This document shows positions 1 through 3,611 of a stretch of DNA of 64,000 nucleotides, one piece after another. The position numbers and the translations under genes are program-made. Source of the stretch: Streptomyces sp. NBC_00234. Its GTDB lineage: Bacteria > Actinomycetota > Actinomycetes > Streptomycetales > Streptomycetaceae. Each line of letters begins with the position of its first letter. Position 1 is the first letter of the stretch. The DNA lies in assembly GCF_036195325.1 (NCBI RefSeq), contig NZ_CP108101.1, forward strand, positions 2,108,001-2,172,000. The letters are read 5' to 3'. Under the pieces are notes generated by a model. It made no database searches. It was given only the letters and a program-made list of their open reading frames with translations, and had not been told where the DNA came from.

Positions 1-1146
1 CGCGGCGAGTTGTCCGGCGAGTGCCGCGTCGGGGCCGGGCGCGGCGCAGGCCCGCTGGACGAGCGGGGCCAGCGGTGACGCACAGGGGCCGGCCAGCAGG
101 GTGGCAAGCAGTTCGTGCACGGCACGGCGTCCGGCCGGCGGTGCGCGGTGCAGGACGGCCCGGCGCAGCAGGGGGTGACTGAAGTGCAGGCGGCTGCCCG
201 TCCGTTGGAGGACGCCGGCGATCCCGGCGGGGCCCAGCAGAACGTGGTCGAGGAAGCCGGTGGCGAGTCCGGCCCCGGCGCCCGCCCGCATCAGCAGCGC
301 GGCGTCCGCCCCCGCGCCTTCGGGTTCGTGTTCCTCCGCCGCCGCGGCCAGCAGGAGGAGGGTCCGGGTGTCGGGTGCGAGGGCGTCGAGGTGGGCCGCG
401 TGGGCGTCGAGGACGCCTTCGCCACCGGGCAGCGGATAGGGCAGCGCGGTGCGCCCGGCCAGCTGGTCGGGGGTGAGGCGGCCGGCGAGTCCGGCGAGCA
501 GGCGCGGGTTGCCCGCCGCTTCCCGCAGCAGTTCGCTCCGTACGACCGGGTCGACGCCTCCGGCCCCGTCGGTGAGCCGGTCGAGCAGCGCCGCCGCGGC
601 GTCGTCGTCGAGCGGGCCGAGCCGGAGTGCCGGCAGCCCGGCGAAACTGGCCTCGTCCTCGGCACCGATGACGACGGCGACCCGGCTGCCCGCACCGAGC
701 CTGCGGGCCGCGAAGCCGAGCGCGGCACGCGAGTCGGGGTCCCAGGCGTGCGCGTCGTCGACGCAGACCAGCAGCGGCCGTTGGGCGCCGAGGCCCCTCA
801 GGAGGGCGAGCAGGCTCCCCGGGGTGATGCCCGAACGCAGCACCTGGTCGGCCTGGGCGGGAAGGACACCGGGGGCCGAGCAGAGCAGGGCGTGCAGTCC
901 GCTGTAGGGCAGCCGTTGCTCGACGGGCTCCCCCGTCGCGTACAGCACCGGTCCCTGCTCGCGTGCGCGGTGGGTCTCGGCCGTCCGCCGCAGCAGCGAG
1001 GTACGGCCGAGGCCGGGCGGTGCGGTCAGTACGAGCGCACCGCCGTCACCCGCCCGAAGTCTGCCCAACAGGCTTTCCAGAATGGCGAGTTCACCGCTGC
1101 GGCCGTACAGCCGGAGCGGACTGTGCACGGTCGTGGATGAGGTCAC
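1..1146 (-). CDS. LuxR-family (LAL-type) ATPase regulator, N-terminal part
   Basis: The frame is open from a GTG at 1146 to the left edge, giving 382 codons without a stop, so the C-terminus and any LuxR helix-turn-helix lie outside. The start reads VTSSTTVHSPLRLYGRSGEL, the usual opening of large ATP-binding LuxR regulators. A P-loop is at residues 43-50 (PPGLGRTS) and a Walker B at about 125-131 (LLVCVDD, followed by AH). Near the visible end is FSHPLLRRAV, typical of this family. The P-loop has Arg48 where Lys is expected, so ATP binding may be altered. Family assignment is inferred from N-terminal architecture; the target genes are unknown. Confidence 0.75.
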   Translation of the reverse strand, partial: MTSSTTVHSPLRLYGRSGELAILESLLGRLRAGDGGALVLTAPPGLGRTSLLRRTAETHRAREQGPVLYATGEPVEQRLPYSGLHALLCSAPGVLPAQADQVLRSGITPGSLLALLRGLGAQRPLLVCVDDAHAWDPDSRAALGFAARRLGAGSRVAVVIGAEDEASFAGLPALRLGPLDDDAAAALLDRLTDGAGGVDPVVRSELLREAAGNPRLLAGLAGRLTPDQLAGRTALPYPLPGGEGVLDAHAAHLDALAPDTRTLLLLAAAAEEHEPEGAGADAALLMRAGAGAGLATGFLDHVLLGPAGIAGVLQRTGSRLHFSHPLLRRAVLHRAPPAGRRAVHELLATLLAGPCASPLAPLVQRACAAPGPDAALAGQLAA

Positions 1147-1333: not shown

Positions 1334-2260
1334 CTAGGAGGTGTGGGGGCAGTTGCCCCGGTACTCGGCGATCGTCAGACTCGCCTGCGGCAGCGGGCAG
1401 AGGAACTGCTCGTACCGGGTGTCGTTGTCGATGAACCGCTTCAGCCACGAAATGCTGTACTTCGCGATCGTGGTGTTGGAGGAGTTCGGCGTGAAGTGCG
1501 TGGCGCCGCGCAGCTCCAGATACGCCTTGTCCAGGGTGCTGGGCAGCGAGTTGTAGAACGGCTCGGAGTGCGTGGCGACCGGTGCGACGGTGTCACCGTC
1601 CGATCCGACCACCAGGGTGGGCGTCCGCACCTCGGGCCAGGTCTTGTCGGTGTTCCAGCCGGTCAGCGGGATCGCCGCCTTCAGCGAGGGACGGTCCTTG
1701 GCGGCTTCCAGGGTGCCGCCACCGCCCATGGAGTGGCCCATCACGCCGAGGCGCGAGCTGTCGATCCGGCTGCGGACCGAGCTCTGGTTCGTCAGGTAGT
1801 CGAGTGCGGCCAGGAGTTGGTCGCCACGGCTGTCCGGCTGGTCCAGCGTCGTGTTGGTGTCGATGGTGAAGACGACGAAGCCCTGGGAGGCGAGCCGCGG
1901 GCCGAGCCAGGCCATGCTGGACTGGTAGGCGGTGAAGCCGGGTGCGACGGCGATCGCGCCGAAGGTGCCGTCCGCGGTGGACGTCGGGTAGTAGATGGTG
2001 CCGCCGCCGAAGCCGCCCACCAGCGAGGAGACGGAGGTCTCCGACACGGCGTACGAGCCGCGGAGCGCCTCGATGCTCGAAACGGTCGGCGCGGGACCGC
2101 GCTGGTAGGGGTTGTCGGCGGCCTGGGCGCCGGGGACCAGCGCGGTGAACAGACCTGCGGTGGCGGCGGCGGCCAGCAGGGTCCTGAACGTGCGGGTGCG
2201 GCCCTGGGTCGTCCGGTGACCGCGCGGGGAGGTACCGCCGAAGGGGAGGAGCTGGTGCAC
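1334..2260 (-). CDS. Secreted polyester hydrolase / cutinase (PET-hydrolase family)
   Basis: 308 aa from GTG 2260, chosen because GAGAGGA lies 8 bases upstream; an upstream in-frame start would add 47 unlikely residues. Residues 1-47 form a Sec signal peptide (two Arg-containing stretches, then [20 protein letters not shown]). The 261-residue mature enzyme is an alpha/beta hydrolase with nucleophile Ser177 in GHSMGG, Asp223 in SDGDTV and His255 in GATHF. In mature numbering these are 130, 176 and 208, the triad numbering of Thermobifida cutinases. The oxyanion-hole aromatic residue is Phe109 (PGFTA), as I recall for Cut190-type enzymes. Two C-terminal cysteines (LCPLP and NCPHTS) can form the family disulfide. 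Likely role: extracellular hydrolysis of cutin-like polyesters; activity on PET is possible but not shown by sequence. Confidence 0.93.
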
Positions 2261-2460: not shown

Positions 2461-3216
2461 TCAGCGGACCGGGTGACCGGCTTCCCGCAGAGCGTCCTTG
2501 ACCTCGGAGATCCGCAGGTCACCGAAGTGGAAGACGGACGCGGCGAGCACCGCGTCGGCGCCCGCTTCGATGGCCGGAGCGAAGTCCGCGAGGCGGCCGG
2601 CGCCACCGGAGGCGATGACGGGGACCGTGACGTGCGCGCGTACGGCCGCGATCATCTCGGTGTCGTAGCCGTCCTTCGTGCCGTCGGCGTCCATCGAGTT
2701 GAGCAGGATCTCGCCCGCACCGAGCTCGGCGGCCCGGTGCGCCCACTCGACGGCGTCGATGCCGGTGCCCTTGCGGCCACCGTGCGTCGTCACCTCGAAG
2801 GTCCCCGCGGGGGTGCGCCGGGCGTCGACCGAGAGCACGAGGACCTGGCGCCCGAAGCGTTCGGCGATCTCGCGGATCAGGTCGGGCCGGGCGATGGCCG
2901 CGGTGTTGACGCCGACCTTGTCGGCCCCGGCGCGCAGCAGCTTGTCGACGTCGTCGGGGGTGCGGACACCGCCGCCGACCGTGAGCGGGATGAAGACCTG
3001 CTCGGCGGTGCGGCGCACCACGTCGTACGTCGTCTCCCGGTCACCGCTGGACGCGGTGATGTCGAGGAAGGTCAGCTCGTCGGCGCCCTCGGCGTCGTAC
3101 AGCTTCGCCATCTCCACCGGGTCACCGGCGTCCCGCAGGTTCTGGAAGTTGACGCCCTTGACGACCCGGCCGTTGTCGACGTCCAGGCACGGAATGACTC
3201 GGACCGCGAGGCTCAC
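2461..3216 (-). CDS. hisF: Imidazole glycerol phosphate synthase, cyclase subunit HisF
   Basis: 251 aa, the usual length. HisF uses ammonia from HisH to convert PRFAR into imidazole glycerol phosphate and AICAR (histidine step 5) in a cytoplasmic HisF-HisH complex. The (beta/alpha)8 barrel shows the catalytic aspartates Asp12 ([13 protein letters not shown]) and Asp131 (LSVDARR), and the phosphate loop LTVGGGVR at about 78-85. The start overlaps the ridA stop by 4 bases, so the two are translationally coupled. It is the last gene of the operon; hairpins follow. Confidence 0.97.
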
Positions 3217-3611
3217 TTCGCACCTGCCCGGAATGCCTCGACCTCGACCTCGACGACCAGGCTCGGGTCGACGAACCCGGACACGATGATCATCGAGGCG
3301 GCGGGCCGTACGTCGTCGAACAGTTCCTTGTGGGCACGGCCCACGTCCTCGACGTCCCGGGCGTGCGTGATGTACATCCGGGTGCGGACGACGTCCTCGC
3401 GGCCGAGGCCGGCCTGCTCCAGCGCCTCGAAGGCCACGTTGAAGGAGGCGACGGTCTGCTCGTACGGGCTGCCCGCCGAGATCTGGCCCTTGACCACCGA
3501 GGTGCAGCCGCTGACCAGGACGAGGCCGCCCGGCAGCTCCACGGCACGGGAGTAGCCGAACTTCTCCTCCCAGGGGGCGCCGGAGGAGATACGGCGTACG
3601 GCGTCCGTCAT
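3213..3611 (-). CDS. Rid-family (YjgF/YER057c/UK114) protein without the catalytic arginine
   Basis: 132 aa, one full Rid domain. RidA enzymes hydrolyse reactive enamine/imine intermediates and use an Arg near position 105 in a PARSxV-type motif. Here the matching stretch reads RPAASMIIV, with Ala at position 105, so the carboxylate-binding Arg is missing. The protein therefore belongs with the Arg-lacking Rid subgroups rather than true RidA, and its activity is unknown. It sits between priA and hisF with 4-base overlaps on both sides, so it must be co-translated with histidine enzymes. A role in handling an unstable amino-sugar or imine intermediate is only inference. Confidence 0.88.

Follow-up and report, generated by a model that had tools for sequence, protein, structure and literature searches.

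A LipA-type serine esterase of the PETase family behind the his genes of a Streptomyces genome, combining Cut190-like and non-Cut190 residues at its calcium-site positions

The lipA-type gene lies on the minus strand of a 64,000-nucleotide window (the whole stretch of DNA that was analysed) of a Streptomyces genome, where an uninterrupted frame runs from a GTG at 2260 to a stop at 1334 (Table 1). The ribosome-binding sequence GAGAGGA stands before the GTG of the query and recurs in 12 of 12 relatives compared, whose start sites coincide with it, and the gene, reported in a preliminary description as an open reading frame at 1334-2260, is real. Long antisense frames do occur in the region (e.g. 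1082-2299 on the plus strand) and would suit a chance open reading frame of G+C-rich DNA, a reading that is already refuted by homology to solved enzymes spanning the entire mature part (418 bits in Pfam; E 1.4e-150 to 1JFR) and whose probability is vanishingly small. A consensus scan of 1100-2560 gave no sigma-70-like promoter.

Upstream on the lipA strand are encoded HisF, a HisA-type PF00977 protein, a HisH-type amidotransferase, HisB and an aminotransferase, in agreement with the adjacency to the his operon noted before. Related genes were compared at 143 distinct places, a set that excludes the window's own gene and favours sequences close to the query (it draws on the best 80 of 512 confirmed loci, within which relatives are 75-89% identical). 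In at least 40 of these the lipA-type gene lies no more than 1 kb downstream of a same-strand hisF match, with gaps of 190-699 bp, a lower bound because short contigs and short stretches are among the 143 places. The position behind hisF is conserved, and we see no reason for a tie to histidine synthesis. Between hisF and the hisA-type gene lies a RidA-like (PF01042) gene (3213-3611, minus strand), a match to which is present in 23 of the 25 loci having a hisF match. On the downstream side the window edge truncates a gene (1-1146, minus strand) for an AAA_16 ATPase-domain protein, of which the beginning is present; the product is presumably a large LuxR/MalT-type regulator that binds ATP. A 10-bp perfect inverted repeat without a T run occupies 2306-2331 between hisF and lipA. 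The same hairpin was not seen in 21 relatives scanned (stems of at least 8, at most four per relative), several of which show others, and since it is not common to these relatives we make no regulatory claim for it. A DasR-type (GlcNAc response) operator before lipA was rejected: against what we take to be the operator consensus the best match is 9/16, found twice in the 203-base stretch, and as 367 of the 63,984 window positions (plus strand only) score 9 or more, about one such match is expected in a stretch of this length and the finding is not significant.

Table 1. The lipA-type gene, its parts and its surroundings. Positions are those of the window, or of the named locus for the tandem pairs; residues are numbered from the GTG start unless called mature.
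Feature	Position	Strand	Basis or remark
lipA-type gene, 308 aa, GTG start	1334..2260	-	predicted secreted PETase-family (PF12740) serine esterase
N-terminal export signal-like region, residues 1-47, AQA then Ala48	2120..2260	-	read from sequence
Mature enzyme, 261 residues, numbering from Ala48	1337..2119	-	AlphaFold2 model, 1JFR match
Short beta1-beta2 loop Gly68-Phe84, Cut190 length; site 1 equivalents Ser79, Val81, Phe84	2009..2059	-	alignment
Phe109 (mature 62), equivalent of Cut190 Phe106, oxyanion position	1934..1936	-	alignment
GHSMG nucleophile elbow, residues 175-179, around Ser177 (mature Ser130)	1724..1738	-	alignment
Asp221, equivalent of Cut190 Glu220 / TfCut2 Asp174, site 2	1598..1600	-	alignment
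Catalytic Asp223 (mature 176)	1592..1594	-	alignment
Arg251, equivalent of Cut190 Asp250 / TfCut2 Asp204, site 2 replaced	1508..1510	-	alignment
Catalytic His255 (mature 208)	1496..1498	-	alignment
Cys288 (mature 241), expected C-terminal disulfide, first half	1397..1399	-	alignment
Ala298, equivalent of Cut190 Glu296 / TfCut2 Glu253, site 2 acid lost	1367..1369	-	alignment
Cys304 (mature 257), expected C-terminal disulfide, second half	1349..1351	-	alignment
hisF, 200 bp upstream of the lipA start	2461..3216	-	PF00977, 283 bits
Tandem lipA-type pairs in other genomes	L151 3289-5401; L152 4227-6261; L153 4065-6165		directly behind hisF

The product matches the PETase family over the complete profile (PF12740, 418.5 bits against a gathering score of 28; profile 1-263 of 263, residues 46-305) and also passes the NCBIfam equivalog for bis(hydroxyethyl) terephthalate (BHET) hydrolase (NF051441, 567.5 bits, cut-off 520). 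Identity reaches 84.6% (220/260) with the S. exfoliatus lipase 1JFR and 81.5% (212/260) with PET40 (8A2C, Amycolatopsis), compared with 67.1% (173/258) for Cut190 of Saccharomonospora viridis (4WFI/5ZNO), which is not the closest relative as had been proposed; the values fall further to 64.5% (165/256) for the Thermobifida cutinase 5ZOA, 57.6% (147/255) for LCC and 47.8% (122/255) for IsPETase. An AlphaFold2 model of the mature chain, built from 58 more varied rows, has a mean pLDDT of 96.7 and a pTM of 0.94 (an earlier model, built from 22 close rows and including the signal region, had a mean pLDDT of 51.9 and was discarded). The predicted chain superposes on 1JFR with a TM of 0.99 and an rmsd of 0.5, on Thermobifida chains at about 0.7-1.0 and on Cut190 at 0.8 (Ca2+-bound 5zno) or 1.5 (Ca2+-free 4wfi); whole-chain TM values of 0.95-0.99 to the 1JFR, PET40 and Cut190 chains give the model a lidless alpha/beta-hydrolase fold. 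The best PDB matches by VIA-align are PET40 (Z 48.8) and 1JFR (Z 48.5), which tie. With 1JFR and PET40 as the nearest solved chains and NF051441 passed, the product is a predicted LipA-type BHET hydrolase, of a kind already studied in Streptomyces. The reading as a secreted lidless alpha/beta-hydrolase of the Streptomyces LipA/S. exfoliatus lipase group within the PETase family has, in our estimate, a probability of roughly 0.93.

In mature numbering, with Ala48 as residue 1, the catalytic residues are Ser130, Asp176 and His208, as previously numbered, and on this scale the Thermobifida chain 5ZOA carries Met131/Asp176/His208. No variation in the triad or in either cysteine occurs across 58/58 aligned rows, the query counted, and the triad geometry of the model was judged by whole-chain superposition. 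Cys241 and Cys257 are the sole cysteines and match the pair of Cut190 and the Thermobifida cutinase, so that the residues of the C-terminal disulfide described before are present and conserved, and the bond itself would be expected from the solved relatives. The Phe in the oxyanion-hole position (mature Phe62) was likewise read correctly, and it is not unusual, being found in 57 of 87 loci, with Tyr in the other 30. Thermobifida cutinase, LCC and IsPETase have the same triad, and the Thermobifida enzyme also the fold and the C-terminal cysteine pair, whereas all three carry Tyr at the oxyanion position. The query is not of the IsPETase type, having His176 at Trp159 and Ser220 and Thr257 at the positions of the extra disulfide Cys203-Cys239. 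Esters would be cleaved by the classical serine mechanism, in which Ser130 would attack the carbonyl, His208 and Asp176 would relay the proton, and the backbone amides of Phe62 and Met131 would, by the roles that we assume for the family, hold the oxyanion.

The mature chains of 1JFR and PET40 begin at the position matching Ala48, and together with the signal-like N-terminus these solved relatives suggest that the product is probably secreted. By eye, no twin arginine is evident in residues 1-47; the S. coelicolor LipA (ScLipA) is described with a Tat signal in the available part of PMC11169514.

Substrates would comprise esters of fatty acids, polyesters of the cutin-like or aliphatic kind and small aromatic esters, BHET among them, with PET film as a side activity. 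In the accessible text of PMC11169514, Streptomyces LipA enzymes were deleted, over-expressed and purified, and hydrolysed BHET; ScLipA, which is 78% identical to PET40, was taken through deletion, over-expression and a BHET assay. ScLipA, S2LipA and S92LipA belong to the same genus and family as the query and are compared here by that paper's description, according to which one of three LipA variants made amorphous PET film rougher, in much the same way as TfCut2, and the other two had limited to no effect. From these relatives BHET hydrolysis by the query is likely, and useful activity on PET film is uncertain; because two of three LipA variants were weak or inactive on film, 'plastic-active' may here mean BHET only. 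The earlier designation as a candidate plastic-active enzyme from Streptomyces holds without being new, as it is preceded by LipA, by SM14est/PETase SM14 (PMC12117601, seen in part) and by the Streptomyces W2061 enzyme, given as 78.8% identical to 1JFR in the portion available of PMC11485624.

The weak effect on film also bears on a narrower reading, which overlaps with the LipA-type assignment, namely that the enzyme is a lipase or carboxylesterase acting chiefly on natural lipids and hardly at all on polyesters. The name lipase carried by 1JFR, the closest solved relative, and the little or no change in PET film with two of three LipA variants (PMC11169514, in part) speak for such an enzyme, whereas the NCBIfam BHET-hydrolase equivalog score exceeds its cut-off, and polycaprolactone and polybutylene succinate are degraded, in the text available of PMC7851449, by a relative from Amycolatopsis that shares 75% identity with the S. 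exfoliatus lipase. We regard negligible polyester activity as rather unlikely, with an appreciable chance of being right, and retain the assignment to the PETase/actinomycete-cutinase family, which accords with the first description and with the intact triad and the PF12740 match.

As given in the available parts of PMC6505623 and PMC9039725, calcium site 1 of Cut190 (Ser76, Ala78, Phe81, Asn133) is linked with activation and described as unique to this enzyme, whose site 2 (Glu220, Asp250, Glu296) is one that cutinases commonly have and is linked with thermostability; site 3 is formed by Asp204/Thr206. By alignment the query has Ser79, Val81, Phe84 and Asn136 at site 1 and the same residues as Cut190, Asp205 and Thr207, at site 3, whereas Asp221/Arg251/Ala298 replace Glu220/Asp250/Glu296, so that two of the three site-2 acids of Cut190 have become Arg and Ala. 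Pro227 and Ala229 of the query differ from Ser226 and Arg228 of wild-type Cut190. The preliminary description is thus partly supported: 'Cut190-like' fits the fold, triad, Phe106 equivalent and short beta1-beta2 loop and fails at the stabilising Ca2+ site 2, and the expected role of calcium is supported only in part, by residues that match most of site 1 and both positions of site 3. 1JFR resembles the query in the oxyanion-position Phe, the D/R/A residues at the site-2 positions and Asn at the Asn133 position, and differs in a beta1-beta2 loop longer by one residue. PET40 shares the Phe and the site-2 Arg, whereas its two remaining site-2 residues are Gln and Ser, the site-3 Asp has become Thr, Leu occupies the Asn133 position and the loop is longer.

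The loop measures 17 residues in both the query and Cut190, and 18 residues in 111, 16 in 23, 17 in 4, 19 in 3 and 15 in 2 of the 143 other places. The four with 17 residues are the nearest relatives, L154 and L155, together with Lentzea L078 and 'Nocardia' NRRL S-836 L082; the latter two stand elsewhere in the tree, and in them site 2 reads Glu-Asn-Glu, site 3 reads Thr-Asn and the oxyanion residue is Tyr. A constant association of the short loop with Arg251 is ruled out by L078 and L082, which carry Asn at 251. Equal loop length, the match of Ser79, Phe84 and Asn136 to Ser76, Phe81 and Asn133, of Asp205/Thr207 to site 3 and of Phe109 to Phe106, and the closer fit to Ca2+-bound than to Ca2+-free Cut190 (rmsd 0.8 versus 1.5) would all agree with a true Cut190-type enzyme, needing Ca2+ at all three sites for both activity and stability. 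Such an enzyme is quite improbable in view of D221/R251/A298 where site 2 has E220/D250/E296, of the greater closeness of the S. exfoliatus lipase and PET40, and of Val81 at the Ala78 position, ion binding being in any case something that cannot be read from sequence. The query instead reads as an ordinary homologue of the LipA-type polyester hydrolases, its calcium-site positions being a mosaic of Cut190-like and non-Cut190 residues, in which an activating Cut190-like site may remain in the short loop.

Arg251 occurs in 50 of the 143 places, and in these 221 is acidic throughout (47 Asp, 3 Glu), whereas 298 is acidic in 0/50, being Ala in 47 and Ser in 3. Where identity is 70% or more (108 places) the combination Asp-Arg-Ala is found in 46, with an acid at 298 in 57 of the 62 others. 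Gln at 221 (17 places) is accompanied at 251 by Ala, Pro, Ser or Thr and in no case by a charged residue; PET40, which lies outside the 143, is the exception with Gln-Arg-Ser. Among the 40 hisF-linked places residue 251 is Arg in 35 and Asn in 5. A quick tree needs 7 changes between Arg and Asn, of which the starred branches force only 1; independent pairs on starred branches likewise number one, too few for a test, so that the tight pairing cannot be taken as repeated evolution. Relatedness among the 143 sequences is a further reason for caution.

In TfCut2 the same three positions are D174, D204 and E253. In the text available of PMC4856421, the engineered variants D204R and E253R melted at the temperature of the calcium-stabilised wild type and were active at 65 degrees C in calcium-free conditions, with calcium still bringing some improvement. 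Because the natural Arg251 stands at the position of the engineered TfCut2 D204R, we infer that it may replace the ion, an Asp221-Arg251 salt bridge taking the place of the stabilising Ca2+ at site 2. The fuller proposal, that the query and most of its his-linked relatives have swapped site 2 for this salt bridge in the manner of TfCut2 D204R, and that the query's small clade, with the short loop of Cut190, may keep Ca2+-driven activation without Ca2+-dependent stability, is a conjecture that we consider unlikely. The available parts of the open-access literature mention arginine at site 2 as engineered only (PMC4856421, PMC8540959, PMC7851449, PMC9039725, PMC6505623), which is not proof that a natural one is unpublished; PMC8540959 speaks of arginine, yet the variants it names are D204A and E253A. 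In polyester hydrolases, which are being engineered for use in recycling, a need for calcium is inconvenient in practice. Should the D221-R251 pair act as proposed, the 50 Arg-type places among the 143 would be a natural example of evolution removing a stabilising Ca2+, and the Streptomyces Arg-type and Asn-type enzymes, similar in sequence, would offer a ready comparison; if not, the gene is one more LipA homologue.

Matches at E<=1e-30 are present in 90 of 199 genomes of a genus sample and in 8 of 296 genomes of a phylum sample, the own genome counted in both; the matches listed for the genus are 35-91% identical and some are partial. The nearest copies among the matches listed (90.3% and 89.4%) belong to two genomes of the genus, and both lie behind hisF. 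The own genome holds one strong copy and a distant second PF12740 match (50.6 bits, over the cut-off; 30% identity to the query), and no PF01083 cutinase over the cut-off, with one match below it (22.9 versus 25.9 bits). Three Streptomyces genomes (G354, G355, G366) have tandem lipA-type pairs behind hisF, where the own genome has its one strong copy. The most matches per genome in the sample, six of 53-60% identity, are found in a 5.9-Mb genome of the same genus (G417) and include L132, L134, L137 and L138. Among the distant homologues, L088, L089, L097 and L099 have frames of 403-433 aa that extend more than 100 residues beyond the enzyme domain, and this excess length probably reflects an added C-terminal domain.
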